NCBI GenBank assembly: GCA_036874045.1
Contig: CM072337.1
Coordinates: forward strand, 8,432,001 to 8,496,000
DNA: 64,000 bases
DNA from: Cymodocea nodosa
Taxonomy: Eukaryota; Streptophyta; Magnoliopsida; Alismatales; Cymodoceaceae
Direction: 5' to 3'
Both the position numbers and the translations under genes were made by a program. The notes below the pieces were generated by a model. That model did no database searches. It was not told the DNA's origin and worked only from the letters and a program-made list of their open reading frames with translations. Below, piece after piece: positions 2,619 to 27,642 of this stretch (position 1 is the stretch's first letter; each line of letters starts with the position of its first letter).

Positions 2619-2701
2619 TTTTCCCCGAAGAGGTGTTTTTGATCCCTGAAAAGATTTTTCATTTGGTGTGCAAGGATAACTGATCAACAAGAATTCTATG
2701 C

Positions 2702-3766: not shown

Positions 3767-6259
3767 GAAAGTCAGGACTTGATACCTACTAGAATTCAAT
3801 TAGGTTGGAGAGTGTTTATAGACTATAGAAAGCTGAATGTTGTGACTAGGAAAGATCATTTTCCCTTACCTTTTATAGATCAAATGCTAGAGAAATTAGT
3901 AGGGTAAGAATATTTTTGTTTCCTAGATGGGTATTCAGGATATAACCAAGTTCCAATAGCATTAGAGGATCAAGAGAAAACAACTTTCACCTGTCCTAAT
4001 GGAACTTATGCTTTTAAGAGAATGTCATTCGGATTATGCAATGCACCAGCCACCTTTCAAAGGTGTATGCAGGGCATATTCATTGGAATGACTGAAGATT
4101 TTTTAAAAATATTTATGGATGATTTTATTATATCTAGAACTTCATATGAAGTGTGTTTAAATGATTTACACCAAGTATTAAAATGCTATGTGGAAAAAAG
4201 TCTGGTTCTAAATTGGGAAAAATGTCACTTCATGGTTAAACAAGGAATAGTCTTGGGACATGTTATTTCAAAGAAAGGGTTGGAAGTAGATAAAGCTAAA
4301 ATAGAAGTAATTTCTAATCTACCAGAACCTAAATCAGTAAAATATATTAGATCATTTCTAGGACATGTTGGATTTTATAGAAGATTTATTAAATATTTTA
4401 GCAAAATAGCTAGACCTTTAACTAATCTATTAAAAGATGTCCCATTCAACTTTGATAAGAATTGCGGAGAAGTATTTTTCAAGCTTAATTTCAACTCTTA
4501 TAATGCAAGCACTTGATTGGAGCCATCCATTTGAATTAATGTGCGATGCATTTGATTTTACTGTAGGAGCAATGCTAGGACAGAAGATAGAAAAATCTCT
4601 TAGAGTGATTCATTATGCAAGCAAAACTTTAAATGATGCTCAAGTTAATTATACAACTACTGAAAAAGAGCTATTAGTTATTGTGTTTGCCTTAGAAAAG
4701 TTTAGATCATATCTGATTGGAGCTAAAGTGATAGTATAAATAGATCATTCAGCTTTAAAACACCTAATAGCAAAGAAAGAGACTAAACCTAGATTGATTC
4801 GATGGATATTATTATTACAAGAATTTGATCTAGAAATTAAAGATAAAAAAGGTTGTGAGAATGTAGTAGCAGATCATTTATCAAGATTATAAATAGGAAA
4901 AATAAATATTGAAATTAAGGATAATTTTCCTGATGAACAATTAATGACCATCAACACAATGCATTAGTATGCAAGTATAGTTAATTACTTAGTTACTAGT
5001 TTAACACCTAAGGATTGGAATAGACAAGATAAGAAATTGTTCTTTTCAAGAGTAAAATGTTACTATTGGGAAGACCCATACTTATTTAAGAAATGTCCTG
5101 ATCTGGTTTTAAGGAGTGTTCTAGAAACTGAATATCAGAGCATATTGTCTTTTTTCCATGACCAAGCATGTGAAGGGCATTTTGGTTCAAGGAAAAGTAC
5201 TACCAAAATTCTACATTGTGGCTTTTATTAGCTAACACTATTCAAAGATGCTCATAAATACTGCTTAAGTTGTTTAAGATGTCAACAAATAGGAAGAATA
5301 TCAAAGAGGAATATGATGTCTCTCAATCCTATTGTTGAGGTTGAAATCTTTGATGTGTGGGGAATAGATTTTATGAGTCCATTTCCTATGTCTAATCAAT
5401 TTAATTATATATTGTTAGGGGTGGATTATGTATCTAAATAGATAGAAGCTATTCCTACAAAAACTAATGACAACAAAGTAGTAATACAGTTTATAAGAAC
5501 TAATATAATTGCCAGATTTGGAATACCTAAAGCTATTATCAGTGATAGAGGAACTCATTTTTGTAATAGAAGTTTTGAAGCCTTAATGAAGAAATATGGA
5601 GTAAATCACAAAATTGTAACATCATATCATCCGCAAACAAGTGGACAAGTAGAAAGTGCAAAAAAACAAATTAAGTTAATCTTAGAAAAAGTAGTAAATC
5701 CTACTAGAAAAGATTAGGCTAATAGATTAATAGATGCACTTTAGGCTTTTAGAACTGCTTATAAGACAAGCTTAGGTATGTCACCTTTTAGGCTAGTATA
5801 TGGAAAAAGTTGTCATTTACCAGTTGAAATTGAACATAAAGCTTATTGGGCATTAAAAACTCTAAACACTAATTTAAATCAAGCTACTGAAAATAGGAAA
5901 ATATAATTGATTGAATTAGAAGAATTTAGGAATGAAGCTTATTCGAAAACTATAAGAAAAAAGAGAAAATGAAGTTCTGGCATGACAAGAAAATTATTCC
6001 AAAAACTTTTGAAATAGGACAAGAAGTATATCTTTACATGACTAGACTCCATAACCATTGAGGAAAATTAAGATCTAGATGGGTAGGACCTTACATAATT
6101 CAAAATATTTATTCCTATGGAGCTATTGAAATTGAAAATCCTAAAAATCAAAATATATTTAAAGTAAATGGACAAAGACATAGACCTATTCTGAAGATTC
6201 CAAAAAATTCCTTTAGAATTATAGAAGTAAGAGTAGAGGACTAATCGAGCTTTACTTAA
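3767..6259 (+). pseudogene. Gypsy pol (RT, RNase H, integrase) of RLG-1
   Basis: A broken Ty3/gypsy polyprotein. RT runs from about 3790 to 4360, with GWRVFIDYRKLN, SFGLCNAPATFQRCM and the catalytic box IFMDDF. RNase H follows (about 4500-4880, FELMCDAFDF). Integrase has an H2C2 zinc region near 5150-5290 (ending CLSCLRC), DDE residues in WGIDFM, SDRGTHFCN and VES, and a C-terminal GPY motif near 6088. No chromodomain is seen, as expected for Athila/Tat. Breaks compared with RLG-2: CAA to TAA near 3906, an 11-bp deletion near 4485, several TGG to TAG changes, and a 1-bp deletion near 5955. The N-terminal protease part is missing. Confidence 0.9.
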
Positions 6260-6996
6260 TAAGAAATTATTATACAAAAAAAAAACCTTATTTAAACATA
6301 GTCACAGTTTAACAGAAAGAAATTATCGATTTTACTGAAATATATATTAAAAGAAAAAAATCATTGTAATTCAACCGATAGGATCCATTGGTCTGATCGA
6401 AACATCAAAACATAAAAAATCTATATATTATATTAAGTAAAAATGTCAGTTTTACCGAAGCATTGTATTAGTTCAACTAGAAGAAAAAAAAAGAAAAAGT
6501 ATTTAATTTTGGTTCAACCGAGGAATATAACGGTTTGACTGAAATTCTAAATGTTGAAAAAATTAAGAGTCGGTTAGATTGGAAATTCTTTGATCTTGAC
6601 CGAAGTATAAACTATTATTATAAGTATTTTTATTAGTTATAACTTTACAAGAAGTCCATTGAGTTACGCTTAACTCAACGAACTTACTTCGTTGAGTCTA
6701 GGATAAGTTAACGAACTTACTCCGTTGAGTTAACTATAACTCAACAGAGTACTGTAGTTAAGTCCACAGACTTAGTTTATGGAGTTAACTGTAACTCCAC
6801 AGAGAGGTAAGTGAGAGAGTGAGAGTTTGCGTGGGAAAATGACCTGATTACCTGTCAGTTTTATTTTGTGGGAAAACTTAGGGTTTATTTACACTAAAAC
6901 TTAGGATTTGGGGGCATTATCTGCAAAATCATTTAGAACATAGAATAATAGAGATCAAAGTGATTCCATTCCATCCCGTCACACCACGAAGACAAG
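6260..6996 (+). other. Non-coding spacer after pol, with two palindromic repeat types
   Basis: AT-rich sequence with no ORF. From 6375 to 6605 it carries degenerate copies of the TTCAACCGA/GACCGAAAC motif (motif C), also found after RLG-2 pol and in the RLG-4 leader. From 6658 to 6800 it carries ACTCAACGAAC/TTCGTTGAGT inverted repeats (motif A). The end leads into the first ATG of ORF3. Confidence 0.6.
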
Positions 6997-7479: not shown

Positions 7480-9019
7480 TGTCGGATCATATGGCTACAC
7501 AAGAGGGGGGTGAATTGTGTTTTTCAACATTTTTGAATATAATTGAAACTTTAAAACTCAAAAACAAGTCGAGACACTATTTTCATAAAATCATTTTTAT
7601 TCAAGGTTTCAATTACAATATACAATTCAATTCTCCTTAGAAATTGTAGATGCAATTATATATCGATACCATGTATCATCTATACAATTTTATAACTACA
7701 AACAAAGAAAACTAATTTACAGAATTTATCTCCTTATTTGAGATCTTTCTTCTTCTTCTTCTCTTTGTTCTTCAGTAATTCTTTAGTGACGAATATCTTG
7801 TCTTTCTCTACTTCACCGAATTTGCTTTCTTTTGATACTTTAAATCTTCAGTGACATATATCTTACCTTTTTCTGCTTCACTGAATTTTCTTCCACTTGA
7901 GAGCTTTTCCCCGAAGAGGTGTTTTTGATCCCTAAAAAGATTTTTCGTTTGGTGTGCAGGAATAACTGATCAACGAGAATTCTATGCCTTTTATATTGTA
8001 TCTTCATTCCATGCATGTCCTCCATGTTTAATCACTACCAGTTTTCCACTTCTTCACGTCTTTTCTTTTTCCTTCATCGAAATACACACATTCTGACCCA
8101 CGTTTACATTTCGAATTTTCTTTAATCATTAATCCTAGATCTCTGAAAAATTTCCTGCAAACTAAACTTTCTCGTCCAAAATTTTTCATCAAGTATAATA
8201 AGAAGTCGTTACTTTAATGTTAACTAAACGAGTAACACAAGTAGATATATAACTTAACGTTTCTAACTTAACGAGTTCCTCATGTGCCAACTCACGTGAC
8301 AAGTACTGTAGCTAACTCAACAAACTAAGTCTGTGGTGTTACGCTAACTCAACGAACCATCTCTGTGGTGTTACAGATAACTCAATGAACCAGTAATAAA
8401 CAAATGTTTTTATAATAAGAATTTTATCATGTGCAAAAATAACAACTTAAGTTTATAACGCTAACCTAACACTTTACCTTAGTGTTCAATATAGCAACTC
8501 AACGCGTTTAGTTATGTTAACTTAATGAGTTAAACATGTGCACCTCACGTGATACAATATAATATTCGTAACTTATAATTTCACCATGTGTACAACACTA
8601 ACTTAACGAGTTCGTTTCTTCTTTTACTTACTAACTTAACAAGTTCTCACGTGACCTATTTTAACCTTTAAGCCTCTAACTTAACGAGTTCTCACGTGAC
8701 CTCTATACAAACAAAACTCTAACTTAACGAGTTGTCTAAACGTGCATTGTTCATGATACAGAAGATATAACTTTAAAACATATCATGCTTTCCAATAAAA
8801 ACACACGTTAACTTAACGTTTAGTTAAATGAGAAATTAATGCAACGAAACGACTAGTTATTAACTTAGTATAATTTCAGATCTAATATAGACAAGTATTT
8901 ATATCAGTAAGCTTTTTCTGTATTAATTGATGATTTTAATTTCTTTTCACAAGCAATAGTAATTGAGCAAATATGATTAGTTTCATTAAGCACACATCAT
9001 CAAAACAAAATACTCAACA
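7480..9019 (-). mobile_element. Solo LTR of Copia-A inside ORF3
   Basis: A 1540-bp sequence from TGTCGG to CTCAACA that matches the Copia-A1 LTR along its length in the same orientation, with no internal region beside it. It interrupts ORF3, whose sequence reads on at 9020. The flanking five bases (AAAAA and CAAAG) do not form a clean target duplication, so they have either mutated or the LTR arose by recombination between elements. Confidence 0.8.
7988..7995 (-). promoter_or_regulatory. TATA-like box in the solo LTR
   Basis: TATAAAAG on the minus strand, at the same LTR position as the box at 2702-2709. It points leftward, antisense to ORF3. Confidence 0.4.
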
Positions 9020-10764
9020 CAAAGAGTTTGCTAACTTGGTCAAAATAGCAAAAGACTAAGGAGATGATGAAGAAATGGCTATGGCCAAGGCACATATTCT
9101 ATATGATGCCATAAAGAAAAGGCACGCTAAAGAAAAGTTGAGGGCCTATTATAAAATAAAAGTAGAACAACATCAGGAAGCAGCTAGATCAATGACTGCA
9201 ATAATCCTTCAAGACCAATAATTATAAAAAGAGTAAAACAAGAAGAGCCAGTACCTATGGCTCGAGGGCCTGCAGAGTCGATTTTGTAGATTTAATCTCA
9301 GAGGAGGAAGAGGAAGACCAAGCACAGTTATTTAGAAAAAGGAAAGGAAAAGAGATAATGCATGAAGCTCCTGTAGAGATTAAATCTAAACCTGCAATAT
9401 TAGAAAGGTCTGCAGAGCCCATTTTTGTAGACCTGTTATCCGAATCTGAGGAGGAGGAGCAGCAGCAGCAGCAAGAGTAAAGAGGAGAAGAAAAATAGGC
9501 TAAAATTAGTCTGCAACCTGTACCAATAGAAGAAATTGAAATTAGGGCAGAAGCTGATTTGCTTGTGACTCCATCTCAATCTTCCATAGAATCAGAAAGA
9601 ATAGTGACAATACAAATTGGTAGTCAAGAGGAAGAGGAAAGAGAAGAAATAGAATAAGAAGCGGAACAAAAGCATATGGAATAAGAAGAAAATCTCTCAA
9701 TAGATTCCACTGAAGAGGGAGAGACTCTTTAGTAAATTTTTGAGAGGATTCAAGAAAGAATAGTGGAGAATTCTATCGGTTCTCCACCATAGACAGAAAG
9801 AGAGGTTGAAATGCAGGAATCTTAGGATTATTTCCAACAAATTCAAGTTTAGCATATGGAAGAAGAAATTCAAGAACAAACCCCTTTAGAGTAACAAATT
9901 CAAATTCCTAAGCTGACTGAAGCAACAGTTCTGAATGAAGTACACTTTTAGAGTCAGGAAGCATACAATAAATATCAAGAGATTAGGGGTTATGATATTA
10001 TATATAGTAGACCAGTAAATTGGGACGGTATGTAGGAAATTAAAGAATTATTTAAGTTCCAGGGTCTACTACAATTTATTTTTCAATAGAGAGGGCATGC
10101 AGTATACGAAAATCTAATGCCCTATTTTTATGTAAACTTGAGAGAGGAAGAAGGAAAATTAATTTCTAACGTGGAGCAAGTTGATATACATATAACACTA
10201 GAGCTTCTCTACAACATTTTTGGATTGAAAAATGAAGGAATAGAAATTCTGGAAAGCACAACTACAGTCGATTGGACAAAACAAGTAATAAAGGACTGTT
10301 TAGCTATCAATCTTGGTGTGCCATTATTAAACAGACTGAAGCACTTAAATAGTAAAGCACACATGGTAGCTAACATTTTGATTAAAAATGTCTACCAACG
10401 ACAAGGTCATGATATTGAAGTAAGTCAGTTTGTTAAATGGGCTACATATGTAGTTGTGAACAAAATTCAAATTAATTGGTACAAAGTTTTTATCTCTAAG
10501 TTAAGAGCAGCAAAGAAGAAACTATTTTATGGAGATTTGATTTCACTGCTAATGGTGGATTGTATCGATTTCACGAAATGGACATCTAAAAAGATAAGAT
10601 CTAGAGCCATTTCAGTGAAAGAATATAGAAATTATAATGCTACAGTTGTTGAAATATCTGGACCTTCTAGAGACATTATTGGAGCTGTTGAATGGATAAA
10701 TCAATTAGAGCAACAATTAAAAAAGCTCTAGAAGGAAGTAGATGAACTTAGGAAAAATGACTAA

Positions 10765-11591
10765 ATGTATTGTTCGTCTACTTATATTTGTATTGTAAAA
10801 AATATCTAACTGCTTGTAAATGTAAACTATTCATATAAATGAATGTTTGAATTTGTGTTTGAGAATGAATGATATAATTGAGAAAGATATTGAATATTAT
10901 ATAATGTTTAAAGATGTGCAAGACTGTTTAAAAGATTTACAAATTTTATAAATGACATGATTAAATGCATGATAATTGGGTAATGCTTGAATATATCTAC
11001 ATGCTGAAAAGTAAAATGTAAATTCTACAGAATAGGAAATGAATAGTAAGTTAAATATGTATATAATGTTTAGATTTAAATGAGTTAAATTAGAACATTG
11101 CATTAATGACATGTATTTAACTTTATTTAAGTCGACAAAATGTAGGAGAGGAAAAAAATATAGAAGTTAATATGAGGAGTAAGTTTTAGAAAAATTTGCT
11201 AAGTGTTAACTCAACAAAGTAAGTCTGTTGAGTTAACCTTAACTCCACGAGGCCAATAATAAAATATAAGGTCACTCCATTGAGTTAACTATAACTTAAC
11301 GAAGTTAGTCCGTGGAGTTGGTAAATAGGCAACTAAGTTAGTCCGTGGAGTTAGTAAATAGGCAACGAAGCTAGTTTGTTGAGTTAGCTGTAACTCAACA
11401 CGGTTAGTTTGTTGAGTTAGAAACAGTAATCGAAGCTAGTTCATTGAGTTAACTATAACTCAACGAGGTTAATTTGTGGATTAAACTAAACGGTTATTCT
11501 TTTAGCCACAAACGAAACTTCATGGGTTTAGCGATTATTGAAATTTGAAATTAAAAGTGAAACATGTATCCATAAAAATAGGAACCATACT
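10765..11591 (+). other. Spacer between ORF3 and gag, with motif A palindromes
   Basis: AT-rich with no gene. The first 430 bases match RLG-3 39470-39890. From 11203 to 11480 there is a dense array of AACTCAACGAAG and CCGTTGAGTTA inverted repeats able to form hairpins; a close copy begins at 63880 in the RLG-4 leader and another lies at 39190-39440 in RLG-3. Confidence 0.6.
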
Positions 11592-13826
11592 TGTAAAGTT
11601 AAGATTTGTGCATTTTATTATAGGTTAAAGCTTGCATTTTATGGATTTCAATTGCATATCACATGATATTTATATAAGATTACATGAAAACTGTATTTTT
11701 AGGCTATGCATGTTTTTATGTATTAAAATTTAATTAATGCACAATTTTACCTTTAATAAAATTAATGTCAAGTTACTAGCCCATATGTAAACATTTAGTT
11801 ATTGGGAATAAACCATTTATCACACATTTCAATTGCACACATGCACGACGTAATTGTTATATATGCTTTTCAATTAAATATTATTATCAACGGAAATCAT
11901 TGGCATGATGTAAATAATAAGTCCCATTTTATTGATGGTTAAAATCAAGATCTAATATCAATTTTTATTACATCTATTTTATGTTCTTGATATGTGCTAA
12001 GTATTCTCCAAGTTTCATTTTAATAGGTGGCATCTATTGCAGCTAAAGAGATGAATTAATCTTCACCATTGGATGGAGATTTTAAAGCATAAATGGTTGG
12101 ATTAATCCCAGCCATTGGATCAAAACTTACCCTTAATAAAAAGACCACAAGCATCCATGCAAGTGTGTCTCTCCATTTCGGGCAACGCCATTCATGCAAG
12201 GGTTGTAGTCGCTTCTTCCATTCTAGCACTGAGGGTGGAGGTGGACAGCCGTTTCCAGCAATTCTCCATCATTTCCAGCAGCTTCCCTTCTCTTCCAAGG
12301 ACGTGGACCAACTAGTTTCCCAAGAAAGGTGGGCATTTCTGCGTCTTCCTCCTCCATTGAAGATATTTTCTCCTTTTTCAGGGCGAAATCTTAGGCATAA
12401 GGAGCTTCACGGGTGGTTTTACGATGGATTGGTGGAGAGAAGCCATGCCAGAATGTTCAGAAGTAAGGAAGGATGTGTTTTACAGTGGACGGTGAATAGG
12501 GAGCATCTTCTTGGCTCGAGACAACATGAGTTTGTTGCTTTGGAGGCTTAAGGATGTGCAACTTGCTTCTTCCATCGCATACCTAGGCGGATCCCTTTGA
12601 AAATGCAATCCACGAGTGGTGACAGACTTGCGGAGAGCCAATTGAAGTGGTATACAACCAAATAGGAAGCATATGCGAGGAAACAAGTGAAGACTTCACA
12701 GTAAAAATGGATAGGAGAGATCCTGATACACATTTCTTTGTTGTTATTGCCTATAGGTATGAGTATTGGATGTGTGTGTTGATATATGGAATTCCATGTC
12801 TGTTTTATTTATTTACTTGTTTACTTTTAGATTTCAGAAGTTATGTAGATACTGGATGATGGTTAATATGATTTTTTTTAATGTTTATATGTGGATATCA
12901 TAGTTATAGATCTAGTGTTTGAAGAAATAGTTGTGTATATAAATGTAGAAATTCGTGTACAGAGTTTTATCTGTTTTGTTTAATTGATTTCTATCAGCTC
13001 CGATGACGGTTTTGATTGGATCTTGATGCAATCTCATGTGGTTTCAAGTCTACTTTCCAACGGATGTCATTTCATAATTTTTGGATGTTGTTTGAGTGGT
13101 TTTCATGAATTAATTCTCAACAAGTGCATCTAACCTAGAATGCAGGTCTGTGTAGAGATTTTGTGCATTTTTGATCATTGATTTCTTTGAGCACAGATCA
13201 AGTTTTCATAATTTATAAATTGGGTTTTCAAGATTAAGAAGTCAGTTTGCGATGAGATTTTATTTCACACCATTTCCTAAAGATTCCAGAAAGTTATGGA
13301 TTTTCTTGTAAAGACGTGTGTTTTGTGATTTGATATCTACATTTTATGCTCTCTTGGTAGATTTGATGTCAATAACTCTTGGGTTTGAATTAGATCACAA
13401 AATTATGCTAGATTTTAGATCTTTAAAAATCCTTTCCAAAATGTATTTTTACGTGAATTTTTAGTGTATATTTTGGAAGGAATAAGTTTTACAAGTGGAA
13501 GCCATTACTGTAATTTCAAGAGCAATAATAGAGTTATAGGTGAGATTGATTTGGAGTTGATTTTTGTTTGTATATTCGTGTATTTGTCCCAATTTAACTT
13601 TTAACCTTAAGTCTAACCATTTTTTAAATAAATTAAAATGCAAAGAAAGTTTTATAGTTGCTTTAGGATATTAGTCAAACAATCAATCAAATAGAAGTCA
13701 TTTAGACAAACTCCTTGTGGAAATTACCTGTACTTGCACTGCTTAATACAATAACGCACAGTGCACTTGCTGTTAAATTATAAATGTAAAACTTGTGCTT
13801 TTAACGACACATGTTCCAACCTTACA
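11592..13826 (+). mobile_element. Gypsy solo LTR (second family), 2.2 kb
   Basis: Starts TGTAAAG and ends CCTTACA, with near-matching flanks ATACT (11587-11591) and ATATT (13827-13831) as target duplication. RLG-3 lacks this block at the same place (near 39097) and serves as an empty site. The 3' end contains the ACTTGCAC and CAGTGCACTTGC signature common near gypsy LTR ends, and a related inverted copy lies at 61111-62068. The middle, 12140-12700, is clearly richer in GC than its surroundings. ORFs in it look incidental. Confidence 0.8.
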
Positions 13827-14167
13827 ATATTAAACGTTACAAGACACGTTCTTGCAATGACATTCATTTGCCTTATGGACGTGCATTATAAATATAGAAC
13901 AAAATGTTATTTACAAGTTACCAGCACTTGAGGAAGAAAATAAAATTTGTTAGGGAATTGGAAGGAGAAGCAGCTGATTCAACTTCATTTGTCAACAACT
14001 ATTTACTGAAAACAAAGCTTCAGACTAGTATGTAATTAATCTTCTACTATTTTACTTTATGTAAAGAGTTTATGAGTATATGGATTTGTTCTCCTAGCAG
14101 TAAATGATTAGTAAGAACACCTACACAAGATTATTCAACATAGAGGTGTATTGAAATATTTTCTGAA
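13827..14167 (+). other. Leader upstream of gag
   Basis: Matches RLG-3 38746-39095. No coding sequence. It holds a GTATGT (14028) and a pyrimidine tract ending CTAGCAG (14100), which would fit a short 73-bp intron. RLG-3 keeps GGTATGT but has CTAGCAC at the second place, so this is weak evidence. Confidence 0.45.
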
Positions 14168-15275
14168 TTGGACTTTAACGAAATCCTTAGGGGTGTAGCT
14201 AACCTTTCTTTAAAAGAGAATGAAGATATGGCTGCTCTAGTAGAAAAACCATTAGGGAAAATTCTATATCCTGAACTAGTTGATGAACCTTCTTGTATTC
14301 AATTGCCAAACTTTGAGGGAGATAGGTTTGAACTGAAATTTAATTATATCAGTCAATTGCCACACTTTCATGGATTAGAAAGAGAAGATGCCTATTATTT
14401 CCTTAGAAAATTTAATGAAGTTTGTCAAATGATGAAAATGTCGAACATGAGTATTGATGCTATTAAACTTAGATATATCCCTTTTGCCTTAAAAGATAGC
14501 TAAGAGATGGTCATATACTCTGTCGCTTGATTTAATTTCTACATAGACTAAATTTTGCTCTATTTTTCTAGAAAAATATTATCTAACACATCAAACGATT
14601 AAAAAGAAAAAGGAAATATTAATGTGTAGCCAAAAATAGAGAGAATCATTCTAGAAATATTTTGAAAGATTTAAAGATTTACTGACTCAATGTCCATATC
14701 ATACAATGAGTAAAGCACAATTAATAGGTATAATTTATGAAGGCATAGATGTTTCAACGAAATCTTTATTAGAATCTACTTGTTAGAATGGATTTTTAAA
14801 ACTGTGTAGTGAGGAAGCATGGGCATACTTAGAAAACTTTGCAAAAAGAACTACATAGTGGGAAAACATGGCTGAAGCTATTACAGATAAAAGAATATTG
14901 TCAAAGGGAATGCATGAAATAGATTCAAGCACTATGCTTGAAGTTAAATTAACTGAGTTAACAAAGAAAATAGAAGAGTTATCATTAAACCAAAAACTAG
15001 TAGAAAAGAATACAAACATTAATGATTTAGATATTATTTATGCTAGAAACCATAAAGATAACTTTGGAAATTCTTATAACCCTAGTTGGAGAAATCACTC
15101 GAATCTATCTTGGAGAAATAACAATTTCCAGGGAGGAGAAAATATAAATGATAAAAATATAAGTTATGAAGCATTAATTAAACAAGGATCTAGAATAGAG
15201 AAGTTAAAAAAGTTAATTCAACAATTAGACAATCGTTTAGATCTTGTATTTGGAAATGCTACCATTCAAAATTAA
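14168..15275 (+). pseudogene. Athila-like gypsy gag (RLG-1)
   Basis: Gag of the RLG family. The N-terminal part (LPNFEGDRFELK, then LPHFHGLEREDAYYFLRKF) and the C-terminal segment YNPSWRNHSNLSWR are typical of Athila-type gag. The central retrotransposon-gag helices are better preserved in RLG-3. No ATG precedes the first conserved residues; the open frame begins at TTG 14168 and the first ATG is at 14228. Stops and a frame change break it between 14503 and 14868. No CCHC knuckle and no protease follow; instead the F-box gene begins about 360 bases downstream, which is unusual for gypsy. Confidence 0.85.
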
Positions 15276-15520
15276 AATATGAATAGAAATATACCCCTTA
15301 GATAGAAAGAATCAATAGAAGTTAGACCTACTAGAGGATTGCCAATGCAAGTAGTACCTAACCTTGTCAACAGAACTATTAATGAAATTGATACCTCCTA
15401 TGGGAGGGAAATTGAATGAAGTAGTATAAATGAAGTAATTATGTATAATATAGTAAATAGAAAAATATAAAAAGAAAAAAATGTAAGTTTAATTATAGTT
15501 AGTAATATCATAGAGTTATT

Positions 15521-15627
15521 ACTTAACTCAACAAACTTAATCCATTGAGTTATGACCTAACTCTACGAGGGTAAGTAAGTAGCTATGTTAATTTTATCTC
15601 TGTTAAATTTTTGTTTATGTTATACAG
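15521..15627 (+). promoter_or_regulatory. Hairpin and splice-like signals just before the F-box ATG
   Basis: An inverted repeat (ACTCAACAAACTTAATCC with CATTGAGTTATG and CTCTACGAGG) is followed by GAGG/GTAAGTAAG at 15571 and a T-rich tract ending TTATACAG at 15627, eleven bases before the F-box ATG at 15639. RLG-3 keeps the hairpin and GTAAGTAAG (37339), but its acceptor reads TTATACAA. The 57-base gap is short for a plant intron, so the AG may pair with a more distant donor, if it is used at all. Confidence 0.45.
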
Positions 15628-15638
15628 AATCACAACAG

Positions 15639-16774
15639 ATGGAATTGATGAAATTACCACTAGATGCACTAAGGGAAGTACTGAGTAACTTATCAGCTAA
15701 AGATTTGTGTAGATTGTGTTGTGCATCAAAAGAAATTAAAAACTATGTTAGAGAAAAATATTTTCATGGACTACAAGCTGCAAAAATGACTAATATTAGA
15801 GATTGATTTTTATGGAAGTCATTTAATCGTAGTTCAATCAGCTACGAATATCTGAATATGGAAGAAAATGCTGGAATTCCACCCAATACATTAGAAGGAA
15901 TAGATCATATTATGGGGATAGATGAAGGATTAATTATTTACAGAACCAAACCAAGGTATGCAATTCTGTTACCTGATATTTTGATTAGAAATCCTATCAC
16001 TAGAGAAGAATGGAATATAGGAAGGCCTAATAGATTTGAAGTACCAATTGAAAATTGTGGGTCAACTTTAACATTTTCTGATAAAAATTTGACCATTCCT
16101 AAAAAATTGTATTACTAGAGATCAACTCTAAATTGGGATGAAAATTTATGCTTAAGTGTGTATAATTTTCTGAATAGATCTTGGACAAAAAGTACTATGA
16201 TATATCTAGGACAGAAATCATTAATTAACAACATACATGTCATACTTGATGGATATATATATTTAGTGTCAGATATATCCATTGCATTTAGATCTAATTT
16301 ATACATAGTAAGCATAGATAGTTATGATGATGACTTTATAGAAATATTACCTATACCGAGTGAGCTAAACCACTATCTGCAGAATATGATAAAATTCAAT
16401 TAGGAATGTGGTATAATGAATATGATGATCCTACTTTATGTTTGATAAGATGGTGGGATGAATTGATGAAATTTCAAATATGGATTATGAAAGACCTAAA
16501 TGAATGGAAGTACGAAGAGGAATATTTTGAAATAGATGTAGAAATAGAAATAACTACATTATCTTGGAACAAAAGAGGATCCCTTTCTACATTTCAATTC
16601 ATTAATGGAAATACACTTATATTTAGTATTGATAACATACTGCAAGTTTACAAGTTAAAAAGGAAAGCAGACTGCATTAAAACAAAATTAATAGTAAGAA
16701 GAATTATGCCTAAAAAGTTTGCTTAGACTAACACGTTTACTCTATTTGTTACTACTTTTCAATCATGTTCTTAA
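15639..16774 (+). pseudogene. F-box protein gene carried inside gypsy RLG-1
   Basis: F-box proteins bind SKP1 in SCF ubiquitin ligases and select targets with their C-terminal part. Residues 4-45 form an F-box: LPLDALREVLSNL, then KDLCRLCCASKEI. The remaining 330 or so residues are a beta-rich tail with regular Trp, Leu and Ile strands (DEGLIIYRTKPRY, PILIRNPITREEW-like, VSIDSYDDDFIEILP, WWDELMKFQIW), resembling F-box-associated propeller-like domains. Breaks: CGA to TGA at 15805, a TAG near 16117 shared with RLG-3, a 4-bp deletion near 16363 and TGG to TAG at 16727. It is intronless, in sense with the element, and lies between gag and the polypurine tract. The target-binding partner is unknown. 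Confidence 0.8.
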
Positions 16775-17331
16775 ATTGTAATTTTGTACTTTTAATGTTG
16801 TGAGTATTCTACATTTATTTTTAGAAAAAAAGAGAAGAAATAAAAATTTTAGTTTTAGTTTTATTTTATAAGAAAAAAAGAAAAACAAAATATTAATCCA
16901 ATTTGTTGGTATCTGTTTTGGGAAACCAACTAGCTTGCTTGTGAGCCACCAAAGGCATAGGAGCCTAAGTTCCACACAAGACACTAATTTAATAATTTAT
17001 ATTTTGTTGTTAAATATTATTTTTTTATATATTCTGCTATTATTTATGAATGAAAAGTTTTTCGAAATCAAAAGTCGGAAGATATTAAAGGAGATACAAA
17101 AGAACAAGGTATGTAATTGATTACTTATCTTGAATTTAGATTTAAACTCAGTTTGTGAAGTTATTCATTAACTCAATGAATTAAGTTCATTGAGTTAGGT
17201 GCTAAGTCAATGAAACAATATTCATGCCTACTAACAATTACTATATTTACTGTAAAATCTTTTACATTGAGGACAATGCAAAATGTAGGAGGTATGGGGG
17301 GAAAGTGATTAGATTAAAAGCCAAGTAATTT
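16775..17331 (+). other. 3' flank of the F-box gene with conserved gypsy motif
   Basis: AT-rich and without a credible gene. At 17160-17215 a motif A inverted repeat lies downstream of the F-box, mirroring the one upstream. At 17266-17304 the sequence has ATTGAGGACAATGCAAAATG followed by a G-rich run (GGAGGTATGGGGGGAAAG), a pattern common in the 3' region of plant Tat/Athila elements. RLG-3 has the same block near 35626-35665. Confidence 0.5.
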
Positions 17332-18601
17332 TGTTAATTAGAAGAATTAGAATGGTGTTGCAAAAGTTCTATGGAAATTGAAATTTTTTTATGAATTTGT
17401 TGTAACTATCTGATAATTGAGACTGTCAAATTTTTAAGAATTGTAACTGCTTGAATGTTATATTTATAATTTTATATAAGATGCTACAAAATTTTACTAT
17501 TAATATAAATCTAGAGATAGTATCTTATGTTTTTGCTGAATTTTATAAGTTTAAGAGTTTCACGATTTTAAAAAGAAATCAAAATGCTTAACTGAAACTC
17601 AGTAAATTATCTGAAATCCTGAAAGAGTTGAAATGTTGATTTTTGGATTAAATGAAATTCATATGATCAAGGATACATTTAATTTGATTAATTAAACTTA
17701 TAGAATGATTTATGTGTAAATCTTATTAAACTATAGAAAAAGTATGAGCTTATTGATATGGATTCATATTTTCAATAAATAATAGAAGCAGGACTATATG
17801 AGATTTGTGTTTTATTACATCTATGTTAATGAAATACGTATATATACTGTGTTGAAAAGAAAAAAAGAGAAAAACTTTGAGAGTTTATTGACTTGTTTGA
17901 TCACGAGTCTTTTGTACTTGAGCAGATAGGTATGTAAGGATTGTTGACTTGAAAAAGGACTCTTTAAATCTAGCAACCTAAGATCCTGATCAGATCTGGG
18001 ATTGTTGATTGAAAGCTCGATACATGGGTACACTAGAAAGCTCTTGTATGATTCAAGCTTTTCAAATTAACTTTTAAAGTACAAATATGTATATACTATT
18101 CTAAAAAGATAAAAGAGTTTTGTGAAATACAGAAATCTTTTGAATTAAGTATATTTTTTGTTATCTAAGATTACTGAAGTATGAATCTAGAATAGACTTT
18201 TGAAGTTGTTTATTTGAGATACAATTCATTATTCTACTTGTTTTAATTATATTGAATTGGATTGTGTTTTGATTCGTATGTAGTTGAAATTTATTTTGAA
18301 AATCATATTGGAAAATTCAAGATAACAGATGTTTAAAAAGAAAAAAAATGATAATATAATTACCACCTATGTGATGCTAATATATTTTGTATGTAATTTA
18401 CATATGTTTTAAATATATTTGCAGGTTGAAGAGGAGAAAACAATGTTAAAATAGATTACTGGAAAAAAAAATACAGAATATCTATATAGTAATCTAATTT
18501 ATGTATTCTGAAGAAGAACAAAACGAAGAATTTATTCTAGCACTTTAGAAAGACCAACTAGTTAGATCTTAGTTTGTTAAGGGACTAGCAAAATTTAAGT
18601 A
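17332..18601 (+). other. 3' non-coding module shared with Copia-A; candidate intron
   Basis: Non-coding. From about 17640 to 18460 it matches the 3' flank of Copia-A at 28560-29430 and 60110-60980 and, inverted, RLG-3 at 34460-35290. All four copies keep ATAGG or ATAG followed by GTATGTAAGG (GT at 17930) and a downstream ATATTTGCAG or ATATTTGTAG (AG ending 18424), spacing 494-508 bases. A second GTATGT lies at 17109. The splice reading is inference. Confidence 0.45.
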
Positions 18602-18610
18602 TAGGGGAAG
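18602..18610 (+). other. Polypurine tract of RLG-1
   Basis: TAGGGGAAG directly before the LTR start TGTTTAGAATG. RLG-3 has the complementary CTTCCCCCAT at 34317-34326. This is the plus-strand primer site for reverse transcription. Confidence 0.8.
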
Positions 18611-20562
18611 TGTTTAGAATGAAAAAGTGCATAATATTAATGGTTAAATGATGGTTAATTGCATAATATTTAGATTATCATATGAGAATTAAGCCATTAT
18701 GTTATAATTGCATTATTATATACTTTAATGAAAGAATCTGCATAATTTTAGAGAATTAATGTGAATTAAGTACATTTCTAAACTATCGGTGAATTACAGG
18801 CTTTGAAATTCTTAAGTATCCAAATTTTCTGTTATTTCGGAGAGTTATATTTTAAACGCTTGAAGAATATTTTATTATTTCCTAGAGTACACATGTTGAA
18901 ATATTAATATATGACTTAAGTGGTTTTTTGGTAAGTTATCTAGTAACTATCCGAAATACATCTGAGCATTGAATAATTAGGGTTGCAAGTATCTGAAATA
19001 CCTTTTTATCATAAAACTGTCTGAGGACACGTGTCGCGTTCTAGAAACTTGACTTAAGTTATCTTTTGGAAGGTTAGGTGTTAACTATCCGAAATGTATA
19101 TAAGTTTCAGATATTTATAGTTATCACTATCCGAAACATTTGAACTAGTTATTTCTTTATTGCACTTGTTTTATAGTTAAATCAACAAAGTAAGTCTGTT
19201 GAGTTATCTGTAACTCCACAAACCATTTATTTTCTAATATGCCACTATAGTAGTTGTAGAAATAGGACATTCGAAGGAAAACCACAATTGCACGTATCAC
19301 GTAGGAATTCACTCATGGAATGAAGAAGAAATCACCATCATTTATATGAATGAAAGAAATCTAATTGATCAATTAAGTAGAAGTAGTTACTACTGAAATA
19401 AATATAAAAGAAGAGGAGAAAGATGAAGAAAGGGTAAGTGTAGAGGTGGAGAATCGCGCTAACTGTAGGAAGCGTCGGAAGTTCCTTGAAGCTCCACACC
19501 ACCACCAAAATCACCAACCATCAGAGGTCTGTGAGGATACTTTCCTAATGTCAGGTCGATTCCGAGCCAAACACGGTGACTGACAACAACTATGAGGAGT
19601 GATCGTGTCGCAGGAAGAGAAGCCATTTTCACCAAGCATCGACTCATGTCTCAGGAGATCGTAAAGCTTTTAGTCTTGGCTTCGGGTTAATGCTAGTATG
19701 CTGAAGAGGAGGTCATCTTACAATTCTTGATTTGTGATTCTATAGGGAGAGGAGGCAAGATTGTAAGTGATTAAGTTTTCAGTGATGTAATCGCGTCACA
19801 TGTAGTGACAGAAGTTTTTATTGTCGATAGAGATTTTTACATTTCACCTTTCACTCATCTTCAAGAACATATCAAAACAAAAATAACAAATTATCTATGT
19901 TTACACTTAGTATTAATGTGTTGTATTCTTTGTTTTGTATCGTGATTAATGTTATCATTGTCAGTATTGTGAATGTTTATGTTTGTTTGATTCAGAAAAT
20001 AGAAAATAATTTTCTTGTTTACTAAAATTGATTCATTTTAGAAACTTAAAGATTTTAATGGTTACTGTTTGAAATATATGGATATTAGTGTTGCTTAATG
20101 ATAAATCTAATATTAACTAACATTAAAGAGCTTAATTGATGTTATTTACAATCTGTGGAACTGCCCAATGGTTGGCCAAATTCCTTTGTAAATAGTAGTA
20201 TTTAACTGAAAAGATAAGCTCGTGGAGTTAATTTAAGTCCACGAGGTTAGTCTATTGAGTTAGCCATAACTCCACAAACTAAGTCCGTTGTGTTAATTGT
20301 AACTCAACGGAGTGCTTATTGAACACATATAAACTCCAATATAAAAATCAGAATAGTACACAATTCTTACTCAATCTCTATGGGATCGACCTATACTTGC
20401 ACACAAATACAATATACACTATGCATTTGCAATTAAAATACAAATTGGAATTAATATCTAATTCATGTGAAAGGTTGTTTGTTTACTTCTAAAAGTAATT
20501 ATTGATACATGCATAAAAGCAAATTAAACAAGTTTAATAATTAACTTAACAACCCCAATACA
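18611..20562 (+). repeat. RLG-1 3' LTR
   Basis: 1952 bp from TGTTTAGAATG to CCAATACA. The ends were set by comparison with the solo LTR at 20639-22597, which has a perfect target duplication. It holds GGATAGTTA/AACTATCCGAA palindromes (18935-19135), motif A inverted repeats (19175-19220, 20218-20312), a CCCAATGGTTGGCC dyad before a decayed TATA box near 20190, and the gypsy-type GGGATCGACC, CTTGCAC signature near 20380. The following CAAAC (20563-20567) should be the target duplication of RLG-1. Confidence 0.85.
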
Positions 20563-20638
20563 CAAACCTAACTATCTGATGCTCAAACACATTTCGGATA
20601 GTTACCAGATAACTTTCCGAACATTCACTTAAGTCATG

Positions 20639-22597
20639 TGTATTGGATTTGTTAACTTTTGTTTTTAAACTTGTTTAATTTGTCTTTATGCTTATAGCAA
20701 TAATTACTTTTAAAAGTAAACAAACAACCTTTCACACAAATAGAGATTAATTCCAATTTGTATTTTAATTACAAGTGCATAGTGTATATTGTACTTGTGT
20801 GCAAGTACAGGTCGATCCCATAGAGATTGAGTAAGAATTGTGTACTGTTCCGATTTTTATATTGGAGTTTATATGTTTTTAGTAAGCACTCCATTGAGTT
20901 ATAGTTAACACAACGGACTTAGTTCGTGGAGTTATGGCTAACTCAATGGACTAACCTCGTGGACTTAGTTAACTCCACGAGCCTATCTTTCCAGTTAAAT
21001 ACTACTATTTATAGAGGAATTTGGCCAACCATTGGGCGGTTCCATAGATTGTAAATAACATCAATTAAGCTCTTTAATGTTAGTTAATATTAGATTTATC
21101 ATTAAGCAATACTAACGTTCAGATATTTCAAATAGTAACTATTAAAATCTTTAAATATTTGGAACGATTCAATTTCAGTAAACTATAAAACTATTTTCTA
21201 TTTTCTAAATCAAACAAACATAAAACATTCACAATACTAACAATGATAACATTAATCATGACACAAAACAAATAATACAACACTTTAATACTAAATGTAA
21301 ACACAGATAATTTGTTGTTTTTGGTATTTTTGTTTTGATATGTTCCTAAAGATGAATGAAAGGTGAAATGTAAAAATCTCTATCGATAGTAAAAATTTTC
21401 GTCACTACATGCGACACGATTACACCACTGAAAACTTAATCACTTACAATCTTGCCTCCTCTCCCTATAGAATCGCGAATCCAAAATTGTAAGATGATCT
21501 CCTCTTCAGCATACTAGCATTAACCCGAAACCAAGGCAAGAAGTTTTACGATCTCTTGATATATGAGTTGGTGCTTGGTGAAAATGGCTTCCCTTCTAGC
21601 GACGCGATCACTCCTCATAGTGGTTGTCAATCACTGTGTTTGGCTCAGAATCAACCCGACATTAGGAAAGTATCCTCATAGACCTTTGATGGTTGGTGAT
21701 TTTGGTGGTGGTGTGGAGCTTTAGGGAACTTTCGACACTTCTTGTAGTTAGCGTGGTCCTCCACCTCTACACACACACTTTCTTTGTCTTTCTCCTCTTC
21801 TTTTATATTTCTTTCTGTAGTAACTGCTTTTACTTAGATGATTGGTTGGATTTCCTTCATATCAACGATGGTGATTTCTTCTTCATTCCACAACTGAATT
21901 CCTGCGTGATACGTGCAATCGTGATTTTCCTTCGAATTTCCTATTTCTACAACTACTACAATGGCATATTAAAAAATATATGGTCCGTGGAGTTACAAAT
22001 AACTCAATGGACTTACTTCGTTGATTTAACTATAAAACACGTGCAATAAAGAAATAACTTATAAGCTACTAACACAACGTGTTACCTTAGTGTATATTCA
22101 AGTAACTCAATGCGTATAGTTATGCTAACTTAATGAGTTATACATGTGCAGCTCACGTGATATACTAAAGCATTTAAATTCAACATGTGCATAATTCTAA
22201 CTTAACGAGTTCAGATATACAACTTACAGTTTTTGCTCACTAACTCAATGAGTTGTTACTTGTACTTTTTACATCTTTAAGCTTTTAACTCAACAAGTTG
22301 TTACTATGTACCTGAATATTCTTTTAGCGTTTAAAACATAACTGTCCTGTACTTTAAATATAACTCTCCGAAATAATAGAAAATTCAAATACTTAAGAAT
22401 TTCACAGCTTGCAACTCACCAACAATTTAGAAATATACTTAATTAACATTAATTCCTTGAAATTATGTAGATTCTTTCATTAAAGCATATAATAGTGCGA
22501 TGATAACATAATAGCTTAATTCTCATATGATAAGCTAAATATTATGCAATTAACCATCATTTAACTGTTAATATTATGCACTTTTTCATTCTAAACA
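20639..22597 (-). mobile_element. Solo RLG-family LTR with perfect target duplication
   Basis: 1959 bp from TGTATTGG to CTAAACA on the plus strand, flanked by TCATG at 20634-20638 and 22598-22602. It is close in sequence to the LTRs at 18611-20562 (inverted) and 32370-34316 (same orientation). No internal sequence remains, so it formed by recombination between the two LTRs of one insertion. Confidence 0.88.
21006..21013 (-). promoter_or_regulatory. TATA box and CCAAT dyad of the RLG LTR
   Basis: The minus strand reads TATAAATA, about 20 bases downstream of CCAATGGTTGG. Equivalent boxes are at 32735-32742 (minus) and 62736-62743 (plus). Confidence 0.55.
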
Positions 22598-22922
22598 TCA
22601 TGTATTAAGGTTACAACACGTGTACTCTAGAAAATAATAAAATATTCTTTAATCGTTTAAAACATAACTATTTGGTACATGAAATATAACTCTCTAAAAT
22701 AACAAAAAATTCAGATATTAGGAATTTCAAAGCCTGTAATTCACTGACAGTTCAGAAATATACTTAATTAACATTAATTTCCTAAAATTATGTAGATTCT
22801 TTCATTACAGCATAAAACAGTACAATTATAACATAATGGCTTAATTCTCATATGATAAGCTAAATATTTTGTAATTAACCATCATTTAATCGTTAATATT
22901 ATGCACTTTTTCATTCTAAACA

Positions 22923-23999
22923 AATGTCTTCTAACCCTTGTTCATCTTCTGAATGTGAAGATTTTGATGATTGTTCCTCAGATTCAGACTCTTCTAACGT
23001 GTCATCCTAAGTGACCTTCAAAGCCTTTTTCTTGTAAAACTTTTTCTAAGTTTTCTGAGCCATCTTCTTCTAATTTGTCCTACTTTGCTTTTCATTTTTC
23101 CTTATAAGACAATCTCGAGAAAGATATCTAGGTTTCTTACAATTGTAACATACATACTTTCTAGATGAAGAATTCTTTTCATTCAGTGACTTTGACGTTG
23201 AGGGTTTGTCATTCCTATTCCTTTGCTGTTTCCTAGCTTTCTATGCTTTCTTAAATTTCCTAGTTAGCAAAATCAAATCCTCGTCAGAATTAGTAGATAT
23301 TTCAGAATCTGAATTAATTTCGAAGGCTATTTCTTTCTTCATTTTTAATTTGTTGTGACTCAATGAATCATTTAATTAAACTTCATAAGCAATTAAATTT
23401 CCTATAAGTTCATTTATAGTATAAACATTTAAGTCTCGTGATTCCTCAATTGATGTTACTTTCTGAGACCATTTAGAACTTAGGGATCTAAGAATTTTTC
23501 TCACCAAATCCTTTTGTTCAAAATTCTTTCCTAAGCATTTTAAAGAGTTTATGATATTTAGGAATCTGGAAAACATCTCAGAAATACTTTCATCTTTATG
23601 TATCTTAAAAAGTTCATACTTATGAATTAACATATTAATCTTAGTCTCTTTAACTTGAGAAGTACCCTCATATGAAACTTCTAATGCATGCCATACCTCA
23701 TAAGTAGATTTATATGTCGACACTTTACTGAACTGTTCATAACTCAATACACAAAATAAGATATTTAAGCCTTTAGCATTCAGAGTTTCATTTTCTTTTT
23801 CAGTAATTGTCTAAGTATTATAAGGAGTAGTTAACAGAGTATATGATTTAGAAATCATAAACCATAACTTGTGAACTATACTTTGAAGAAAGACTGTCAT
23901 CCTATATTTCCAATATTCAAAATGTATTCCATCAAATAAAGGAGGACAATTAAGATTTTGGCCTTCATATAAAGAAAAATTACCATTTCCAGTAGTCAT
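22923..23999 (-). pseudogene. Copia gag (Copia-A2), truncated
   Basis: Same gag as Copia-A1 from the start at 23999 (MTTGNGNFSLYEGQ) through the UBN2 region (23376-23747) to the acidic stretch, where the RLG LTR breaks it. The zinc knuckle near 23110-23155 reads CYNCKKPRYLSRDC, so the conserved Gly-His is Arg-Tyr and zinc binding should be lost. In-frame stops lie near 23810 and 23375. Non-functional. Confidence 0.85.
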
Positions 24000-24184
24000 C
24001 TTACTTTAGATTTTTCAACCTATTTGATTTTAAACAGTTTAAAACTTTTAGAACAACTTGAGCCTAAAATCAACAAAGTTAAACATATGCTTAGAGATTA
24101 ATTTCTGTTTAAAAACAAGGAAGGTAGAATAAGCTTTGATATTAATTAAGTTGGTATCGACTTTATATCAAAGATTATTAACTA

Positions 24185-24196
24185 GCTCTGATACCA
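24185..24196 (-). other. Primer binding site, initiator Met tRNA type
   Basis: TGGTATCAGAGC on the minus strand, two bases from the LTR edge at 24199, as in Copia-A1. Confidence 0.88.
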
Positions 24197-24198
24197 CT

Positions 24199-24833
24199 TG
24201 TAGGATCGAATAGATACACAAGAGGGGGGTGAATTGTGTTTTTCAACATATTTGATTATAATTGAAACTTCAAAAAATAAAAACAAGTCGAGTTTAATCA
24301 AATCATTTTATTTAAGCTTTCAATTACAATATACAATTCAATTCTCCTCAGAAATTGGAGATGTAATTATATAACAATACCATGTTTCATCTAATCAATT
24401 TCATAATTGCAAATAGAGAAAACTAATTTATGGAATTTAAAACATTTCTCCCTATTTGAGATTTTTCTTCTTCTTCTTCTGCAATTCTTCAATGACAAAT
24501 ATCTAACTTTCTCTACTTCACCGAATTTGCTTTCTTCTGATTCTTCAAATCTTTAGTGACATAAATCTGACTTTCTCTACTTCATTGAATTTTCTTCTTT
24601 TTGAGAGCTTTTCCCCAAAGAGGTGTTTTTGATCCTTCAAAATATTTTTCATTTGGTGTGTAGGGATAATTGATCAACTAGAATTCTATGCCTTTTATAC
24701 TATATATTCACTTCATGCATATCCTCCACCTTTAATCACTATCAGTTTTCCACTCTTCACATCTTCTCTTTTTTCTTCATCAAAATACATACGTTTTGAC
24801 CCATGTTTTCCTTTCAAATTTTCTTTAATCATC
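24199..24833 (-). repeat. Copia-A2 LTR, truncated
   Basis: Matches the first 710 or so bases of the LTR at 2125-3766 (two 64-bp units rather than three). It stops near 24833 within a CAATCC microhomology shared with the following gypsy sequence. Confidence 0.8.
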
Positions 24834-27391
24834 CAATCCATGTAGTTCCCAAGACATCAGGATTAACAGTAATTAGGAATGAAAGTCAGGACTTGATACC
24901 TACTAGAATTCAGTTAGGCTGGAGAGTGTGTATAAACTATAGAAAGCTGAATGATGTAACTAGGAAAGATCATTTTCCCTTACCTTTTATAAATCAAATG
25001 CTAGAGAAATTAGCAAGGCAAGAATATTTTTGTTTCCTAAACAAGCATTCAGGATATAACTAAGTTCCAGTAGCATTAGAGGATCAAGAGAAAACAATTT
25101 TCACCTATCCTAATGGAACTTATGCTTTTAAGAGAATGCCATTCAGATTATGTAATGCACCAGCCACCTTTCAAAGGTGTATGCAGGGTATATTCACTAG
25201 AATGACTGAAGATTTTTTAGAAATATTTATGGATGATTTTACTGTTTATGGAACTTCATATGAAGTGTGTTTAAACAATTTAGACCAAGTATTAAAATGT
25301 TGTGTGGAAAAAAATCTAGTTCTAAATTGGGAAAAATGTCACTTCATGGTTAATCAAGGAATCATCTTGGGTCATGTTGTTTCAAAGAAGGGGTTGGAAG
25401 TAGATAAAGCTAAAATAGAAGTTATTTCTAATCTACCAGAATCTAAATTAGTAAAAGATATTAGATCATTTCTAGGACATGCTAGATTTTATAGAAGATT
25501 TATTAAAGATTTTAACAAAATGGCTAGACCTTTAACTAATCTATTAAAAGATGTCCCATTCAACTTTGATAAAAATTGCAAAGAAGCATTTTTTAAGCTT
25601 AAAACTAGCTTAATTTCAACTCCTATAATTCAAGCACCTGATTGGAGCCATCCCTTTGAATTAATGTGTGATGCATCTGATTTTGCTGTAGGAGCAGTGT
25701 TGGGATAGAAGATAAAAAAATCTCCTAGAGTGATTTATTATGCAAGCAAAACCTTAAATGATGCTCAAGTTAACTACACAACTACTGAAAAAGAGCTGTT
25801 AGCTGTTGTGTTTGCCTTAGAGAAGTTTAGATCATATCTGATTGGAGCTAAAGTAATAGTATACATGGATCATTCAACTTTAAAACACCTAATTGCAAAG
25901 AAAGAGACTAAACCTAGATTGATCTGATGGATATTATTATTACAAGAATTTGATCTAGAAATTAAAGATAAAAAAGGTTGTGAGAATGTAGTAGCAGATC
26001 ATTTATAAAGATTACAAATAGAAAAATCAAATATTGAAATTAAAGATAATTTTCCTAATGAATAGTTAATGACCATCAACATAATGCCTTGGTATGCAGA
26101 CATAGTTAATTACTTAGTTACTAGTTTAACACCTAAGGATTGGAATAGACAGGATAAGAAATTGTTTTTCTCAAGAGTAAAATTTTACTATTGGGAAGAC
26201 CCATACTTATTTAAGAAATGTCCTGATCCGGTTTTAAGGAGGTGTGTTTTAGAAACTGAATATCAGAGCATATTGTCTTTCTGTCATGACCAAACGTGTG
26301 GAGGGCATTTTGGTTCAGGGAAAACTACTGCAAAAATTCTGCAATGTGGATTTTATTGGCCAACACTATTAAAAGATGCTCATAAACATTGCTTAAGTTG
26401 TTTAAGATGTCAACAAATAGGAAGAATATCAAAGAGGAACATGATGCCTCTTAATCCTATTGTTGAGGTTGAAATCTTTGATATATGGGGAATAGATTTC
26501 ATGGGTCCATTTCCTATGTCTAATCAATTTAATTATATATTGTTAGGGGTGGATTATGTATCTAAATGGATAGAAGTTATTCCTACAAAAACTAATGACA
26601 ACAAAGTGGTAATACATTTTATAAGAACCAATATAATTACCAGATTTGGAATACCTAAGGCTATTATTAGTGATAGAGGAACTCATTTCTGTAATAGAAG
26701 TTTTGAAGCCTTAATGAAGAAATATGGAGTGAACCACCAAATTGCAACATCATATCATCCGCAAATAAGTGGATAAGTAGAAAGTGACAACAAACAAATT
26801 AAGTTAATCTTAGAAAAAGTAGTAAATCCTACTAGAACAGATTGGGCTAATAGATTGATAGACGCACTTTGGGCTTATAGAACTGCTTATAAGACAAGCT
26901 TAGGTATGTCACCTTTTAGGCTAGTATATGGAAAAAGTTGTCATTTACCAGCTGAAAGTGAACATAAAGCTTATTGGGCATTAAAAACTCTGAACACTAA
27001 TTTAAATCAAGCTACTGAAAATAGGAAATTACAATTGATTGAATTAGAAGAATTTAGGAATGAAGCTTATTCAAAAACTGTAAGAGAAAAAGAGAAAATG
27101 AAGTTCTGGCATGATAAGAAAATTATTCCAAAAACCTTTAAAATAGGACAAGAAATATATCTTTATATGACTAAACTTCATAACCATCCAAGAAAATTAA
27201 GATCTAGATGGGCAGGACCTTACATAGTTCGAAATATTTATCCCTATGGAGTTATTGAGATTGAAAATCCTAAAAATTAGAATATATTTAAAGTAAATGG
27301 ACAAAGACTTAGACCTAGTTTGAAGATACCAAAAAGTTCTTTTGGAATTGTAGAAGAAGTAAGAGTAGAGGACTACTCAAGCTTTACTTAG
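24834..27391 (+). pseudogene. Gypsy pol (RT, RNase H, integrase) of RLG-2
   Basis: The best-preserved gypsy pol here, one frame throughout. RT begins after VHVVPKTSG (24838) and shows RVCINYRKLN, RLCNAPATFQRCM and IFMDDF. RNase H has FELMCDASDFAVGAVLG (25657-25708). Integrase has the H2C2 region (26284-26411, CLSCLRC), the DDE signature in WGIDFMGPFP, SDRGTHFCN and VESDNK, and the GPY end RWAGPYIV. Stops lie at 25062, 25709, 25926, 26009, 26064, 26775 and 27278; several are recognisable CAA, CGA or TGG codons changed by one transition. The protease is absent because of the left-hand deletion. Confidence 0.92.
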
Positions 27392-27642
27392 TAAGAAAAG
27401 TTCTAAGTATATAACTTGAAAAAAAAAAACTTATTTAAAAAATTTTTACGGTTCAACCGACAAGATCCATCGGTTTGATCAAAACATAAAAAAAAATTTA
27501 TATATTATTTAGTAAAAATATCGATTTTATCGAAGCATAGTATCGGTTCAACTGGAAAAAAAAAAATAAAGAAAGAAAGAAAATATTTAATTTCGATTTA
27601 ACCAAGGAACATAACGGTTTGACCGAAGAATTTTTAAAATAT
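27392..27642 (+). other. Spacer after RLG-2 pol with motif C
   Basis: AT-rich and non-coding. It carries GGTTCAACCGA and GACCGAAG copies at 27446-27625, matching 6375-6605 after RLG-1 pol. The match to RLG-1 stops near 27630, where copia RNase H sequence begins. Confidence 0.6.

Follow-up and report, generated by a model that had tools for sequence, protein, structure and literature searches.

F-box proteins normally help to tag other proteins for destruction, and in plants they are encoded by a large family of genes that is quick to change. The question raised by this locus is how a reading frame of this kind came to lie among retrotransposon genes at two places in the same 64,000-nucleotide stretch of Cymodocea nodosa DNA (here, the window), and whether it still encodes anything. 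The window as a whole is densely packed with nested LTR retrotransposons of plant type. Of the seven open frames scanned, five contain retroelement domains above cut-off, either from two gypsy-type copies (reverse transcriptase/RNase H and integrase) or of copia type (gag and integrase). The answer that we favor, and consider quite probable, is that a host F-box gene was captured by a non-autonomous Ty3/gypsy-type LTR retrotransposon, of which the window holds at least two insertions. The parts of these two copies are as follows.

10090-10731 (+): conserved end of ORF3 in copy 1 (tblastn, 79% identical to its counterpart in copy 2, 40566-39928)
11592-13835 (no strand assigned): insertion of about 2.2 kb in copy 1 only (gap in the self-comparison)
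14144-15452 (+): gag of copy 1, broken (tblastn, 86% identical to two gag pieces of copy 2)
37466-38784 (-): gag of copy 2, broken (PF03732, E 7.6e-15 on 38400-38125)
15571-15627 (+): intron-like stretch GTAAGT...ACAG directly before the F-box ATG of copy 1 (read by eye)
15639-16774 (+): F-box reading frame of copy 1, broken (PF00646, E 3.4e-10)
36153-37271 (-): F-box reading frame of copy 2, broken (PF00646, E 1.4e-9 on 37331-36897)
17307-18610 (+): non-coding 3' block between F-box and LTR in copy 1 (alignment)
18597-18610 (+): polypurine tract of copy 1 (read directly before the LTR start)
34330-34317 (-): polypurine tract of copy 2 (read directly before the LTR start)
18611-20562 (+): 3' LTR of copy 1, TG...CA (start motif; end from the copy 2 alignment and the solo LTR)
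32370-34316 (-): 3' LTR of copy 2 (self-comparison, start motif, alignment)
20639-22597 (-): solo LTR of the same family, with a perfect 5-bp target duplication TCATG (20634-20638 and 22598-22602)

That the frame includes an F-box, as the preliminary description had proposed, was borne out by Pfam, where PF00646 scored 39.9 and 37.9 bits in the two copies against a curated cut-off of 20.5. In copy 1 the match covers 15639-15803 (+), the first 55 codons of a frame running from the ATG at 15639 to the TAA at 16772-16774. The second copy had been placed in inverted orientation about 20 kb away, and its match was indeed found on the minus strand; the aligned frames (copy 1, 15639-16774; copy 2, 37271-36153) lie some 19-20 kb apart. 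The same search gave a family for the F-box part and none for the tail, whose pieces reached no Pfam or NCBIfam cut-off. This tail may resemble the F-box-associated (FBA) tail of plant F-box proteins, but among the pieces scanned, Pfam hits with E values as high as 10 included no FBA family. Two tail matches, one to ANAPC4_WD40 in Pfam (E 0.14) and one to a yeast glucosidase in a sequence search of solved structures (E 0.097), were regarded as chance. For the N-terminal piece, no solved structure was matched at E<=10. AlphaFold2, run on two-row alignments, yielded mean pLDDT values of 37.0 and 33.3, models too poor for use, so that the beta-rich tail of the preliminary description is no more than a suggestion.

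Both copies share the order ORF3, gag, F-box, 3' block, polypurine tract and LTR, with the F-box in sense orientation to gag and alike in its spacing between gag and the polypurine tract. In self-comparison the copies formed two inverted pairs, 9831-11387 with 40825-39254 (89.3% identical) and 13836-20562 with 39078-32370 (90.2%), the homology of the latter stopping at the LTR end. The proposed continuity from ORF3 through gag and F-box to the LTR edge was thus confirmed as collinear over 9831-20562 and 40825-32370, copy 2 lacking the insertion at 11592-13835, which, judged by eye, is perhaps a solo LTR of a different family. In both copies the sense F-box was likewise confirmed to have gag on one side and the polypurine tract with the LTR on the other, but the boundary itself had to be moved: the tract lies at 18597-18610 and the LTR starts at 18611, about 1.8 kb downstream of the F-box stop, and a purine run near 17300, similar to the tract, is read as not being the LTR edge. 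The LTR start TGTTTAGAATG occurs four times, at 18611 (+) and at 34316, 22922 and 22597 (-), and the 3' LTR is 1.95 kb long. These four starts define the LTR family together with the solo LTR at 20639-22597, which has a perfect TCATG duplication and fixes the LTR ends of both copies.

The 5' parts of the element are less well represented. Self-comparison revealed no 5' LTR for either copy in the window, and no primer-binding site was found there for either of them, so that a complete element is not seen. The 5' side of copy 1 may extend beyond the window, and that of copy 2 is interrupted by copia-like DNA (by eye). Neither copy has pol between gag and F-box. Upstream of copy 1, on the + strand at 4022-5645 with ORF3 between, there are frames for gypsy reverse transcriptase and integrase, a candidate part of the same element; ORF3 itself matched no Pfam family at cut-off. 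The sole primer-binding site in the window, at 63140, which we take to be of the tRNA-Asp type, belongs to a related element at 62070-64000. In this element an LTR part is 81% identical to 19500-20495, a leader is 91% identical to 11193-11319, and tandem repeats recur every 132-144 bp; the window ends before any gag.

The frame is interrupted in both copies. In copy 1, two stops lie in the part from the F-box to the middle, a 4-nt change shifts the frame near 16362, and a further stop lies near the end; copy 2 has in-frame stops, and gaps of 1 and 20 nt relative to copy 1. Both F-box copies are dead, and no present function is claimed. The lesions fall mostly on one copy or the other. Seven stop sites were counted in the F-box frame (15639-16361 and 16379-16770), of which two are found only in copy 1, four only in copy 2 and one in both, and all three indels are private to one copy. 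Because the other two frames share 37 and 43 stops between the copies, as against a single one in the F-box frame, and because no indel is shared, the two copies must have parted with an F-box frame that was intact or almost so.

The one stop common to both copies is a TAG. Between 13836 and 18610, CAG sites were lost at a rate of about 0.49 per copy (nine are intact in both copies, 17 in one), so that this TAG may have arisen twice, and the value of common stops as proof of an inherited pseudogene is weakened accordingly. Dismissing them altogether is countered by the in-frame CAG/TAG sites of gag and F-box taken together, which show TAG in both copies at four of six sites where recurrence at 0.49 per copy would give 1.4; within gag the count is three of four. 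This excess means that part of the decay, above all in gag, may be older than the split, which would fit an element that moved in trans. Over 13836-18610 and its counterpart in copy 2, the pattern of decay is the footprint of methylation-linked deamination, largely C-to-T, with a loss per copy of about 0.37-0.39 at CHG sites versus 0.06 at CHH sites.

The two copies are 93.6% identical both in the F-box and over 17307-18610, 93.5% in gag and 89.4% in the LTR. When F-box changes (71/1113) were set against those in the LTR and two short non-coding stretches (293/2752, counted up to 20560), the F-box appeared better conserved (Fisher p 2.6e-5). However, the non-coding block at 17307-18610 is conserved to the same degree (83/1294, p 1.0), which rules out low F-box divergence as a sign of selection. 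Changes at CHH sites number 40/280 in the F-box, 45/306 in gag and 113/488 in the LTR, and the lower values inside the element are what heavier methylation of the LTR would be expected to produce. The pairwise dN/dS ratio of the two copies (NG86) is 0.94 for the F-box (43 non-synonymous and 11 synonymous changes) and 0.56 for gag (47.5 and 19.5), and F-box divergence since the split looks neutral. No sign of selection on the F-box was seen between these two copies, and two dead copies could hardly reveal any. The notion of a full-length F-box gene kept in the family, put forward in the preliminary description, consequently finds no support in these copies, both being broken by stops and indels, with divergence that looks neutral.

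Whether the two copies arose as separate insertions was approached through their flanks. The 76 bases to the right of the copy 1 LTR match 18911-18985 in inverted orientation with a score of 45 (maximum of 21 in 300 shuffles), and 22598-22922 continues the first part of that flanking LTR (equivalent to 18611-18914). As the right flank aligns to the LTR and the adjoining stretch continues it, copy 1 either lies within an older LTR from the same family or abuts one. The flank of copy 2 does not match that of copy 1 (score of 10, shuffled mean 10.15), and copia-like DNA lies further out from copy 2 (73.7% over 137 bases). The idea that the outer flanks differ was accordingly upheld on the 3' side, where no common flank beyond the LTRs was found, while the 5' side offers no comparison. 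Non-matching 3' flanks favor separate insertions and, together with the common order and the end of homology at the LTR end, they support the view that the F-box is part of the mobile unit.

This preference for retrotransposition over local duplication has to be weighed against signs of block duplication elsewhere in the window: the stretches 849-6543 and 22923-27627 are direct copies of one composite, in which copia gag and LTR (-) are joined to gypsy pol (+). The block may have been duplicated, or the composite may have transposed as a single unit. By analogy, an F-box pseudogene might have lain in a retrotransposon nest that was then copied in inverted orientation, the element itself never having carried an F-box, and at their 5' ends the F-box copies allow no comparison that would speak to this. 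Against it, homology stops at the LTR end, the 3' flanks are unmatched and the F-box keeps equal spacing between gag and the polypurine tract in both copies; we regard such an origin as unlikely. Exceedingly improbable is the proposal that the F-box match is a chance product of AT-rich retrotransposon DNA. It can draw on a tail that belongs to no family and an N-terminal piece that found no solved relative, but two scores far above the Pfam cut-off and the frame-specific pattern of one common stop versus 37 and 43 contradict it.

Alternatively, the F-box piece could have been a pure passenger, dead already at capture or at the last move, from which the element never made a protein. The dN/dS of 0.94, the one common stop in the F-box and the three common TAG sites in gag are all in line with this, and the balance of probability leans slightly toward it. 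Against it stands the frame that was still almost free of shared stops, and wholly free of shared indels, when the copies parted, an observation that implies neither expression nor selection. At the other extreme, a gypsy lineage might possess a divergent F-box protein as a standing accessory that turns the host SCF ligase on a silencing factor, in parallel to the strategy of polerovirus P0, the copies found here being dead members of it; this proposal we hold to be quite doubtful.

In the history that we favor, capture by the gypsy-type element, a host F-box transcript would have been fused to the element when reverse transcription switched templates, a route already described (PMC13317346), and would have ended up in sense, with gag on one side and the polypurine tract on the other. 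Having no pol between gag and F-box, the unit would most likely have moved with enzymes supplied in trans. The F-box would have been largely open at the last moves and eroded afterwards. Its expression could have been driven by the LTR promoter, perhaps via splicing: the intron-like stretch at 15571-15627, whose end is a possible splice acceptor, could yield a spliced F-box message, although this acceptor is not retained in copy 2. Barley Bagy2 is reported to express its env-like ORF from such a spliced message (PMC7264820). An intact protein would be expected to use its F-box to bind SKP1 and thereby enter an SCF ubiquitin ligase, and its fast-evolving tail would select the target of that ligase.

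A stretch of non-coding DNA in the 3' region of the gypsy-type unit, about 0.8 kb long, was also found by self-comparison and alignment in the 3' regions of two copia-type elements. The copies are about 77-78% identical, and 88-90% in a core at 17864-18079.

17654-18458: 0.8-kb block in copy 1
35273-34466 (-): 0.8-kb block in copy 2
28602-29425: 0.8-kb block in a copia-type element
60152-60977: 0.8-kb block in a second copia-type element

Its presence in both gypsy-type and copia-type elements shows that DNA has moved from one family to another, unrelated one at this locus. To judge from the alignment, the chimerism of the element is apparent in its 3' block independently of the F-box.

Capture of F-box genes is already known in plants, and the present case adds a gypsy-type unit. 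The nearest published example is a copia element of flax with an F-box gene between its LTRs, which was read as gene capture. It resembles the present unit in holding an F-box inside a plant LTR retrotransposon, and differs in being a single copia example with an RNase H domain, whereas here two broken copies have a gypsy-type gag and no pol between gag and F-box. On a wider scale, 672 LTR-captured genes were reported in rice, 1,343 in sorghum and 424 in maize, including a sorghum pair with 89% protein identity (PMC3726574). As here, these are host genes between LTRs, many of them now pseudogenes, but the elements described there are full-length with both LTRs, and the main text, in the portion available, does not contain the word F-box (PMC3726574). 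In Thlaspi arvense the 'LTR-gene' TaChr6G576, of the F-box family, is likewise tied to LTR retrotransposition; unlike the present case, the available account treats it as a host family grown by retroduplication and tandem duplication (PMC8764390).

An extra sense ORF on the 3' side, as seen here, is also a feature of the plant LTR retrotransposons with additional ORFs (aORFs; PMC7264820) and of Retand (PMC11963269). Standing aORFs are described as present in all or most copies of a family and transduced genes in one or a few (PMC7264820; PMC11963269). A standing aORF would be expected in most copies and under selection; this locus provides two copies only, with a pairwise dN/dS of 0.94. Uptake of host-type domains has parallels in orchid Ty3/gypsy elements with an AlkB RNA demethylase domain, a regulatory domain of a different kind in larger elements and active as an enzyme in vitro (PMC9289625), and in planarian Burro, a gypsy element, also larger, with other, ubiquitination-related domains (PMC6431247). 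A functional analogy, and that only, is offered by the polerovirus protein P0, in which an F-box-like motif of a plant parasite protein binds SKP1, a binding that is reportedly not directly required for suppression and stabilizes P0 (PMC6593998). An anti-silencing role like that of P0 might be envisaged for the F-box of the element. No gypsy family with an F-box was seen among the papers listed for gene capture in the open-licence literature. Such a family would represent a route for copying and spreading F-box genes and, should its relatives have an uninterrupted F-box, would make it possible to test whether a transposon can bring along a ubiquitin-ligase adaptor.

Searches for relatives and for the donor returned no F-box relative at E<=0.01 among 209 candidates, and no donor gene, and no gag relative at E<=0.01 among 425 candidates; among viral contigs, five stretches fitted a pattern and none was confirmed as a relative. 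As a control, the copia reverse transcriptase from the window matched at least 7992 sequences at E<=1e-5; the 120 listed come in many cases from named plants (best full-length identity there 66%), which indicates that plant proteins are present in the searched database. Since the gag search was also empty, the failure with the F-box says little beyond the fact that no close relative was seen. At gathering scores, Rfam had no match in the window.

Finally, a 29-bp palindrome-like motif, TAACTCAACG...CGTTGAGTTA, occurs at 34 sites in the window when up to seven mismatches are allowed, as compared with none in each of ten Markov sequences. An RNA-hairpin role was rejected, as the arms do not covary (8.09 of 10 pairs within sites versus 8.25 with shuffled partners). 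None of the 34 sites falls inside the coding intervals considered. Examples of the sites are 6671, 11207-11456, 15524, 17169, 20234-20267, 37358, 39190-39406 and 63882-63967, and further 3027-3091 and 8313-8345. They often follow one another in 33-bp steps, and they lie in the LTRs of both gypsy and copia elements as well as in the spacers that separate ORF3, gag, F-box and 3' block.
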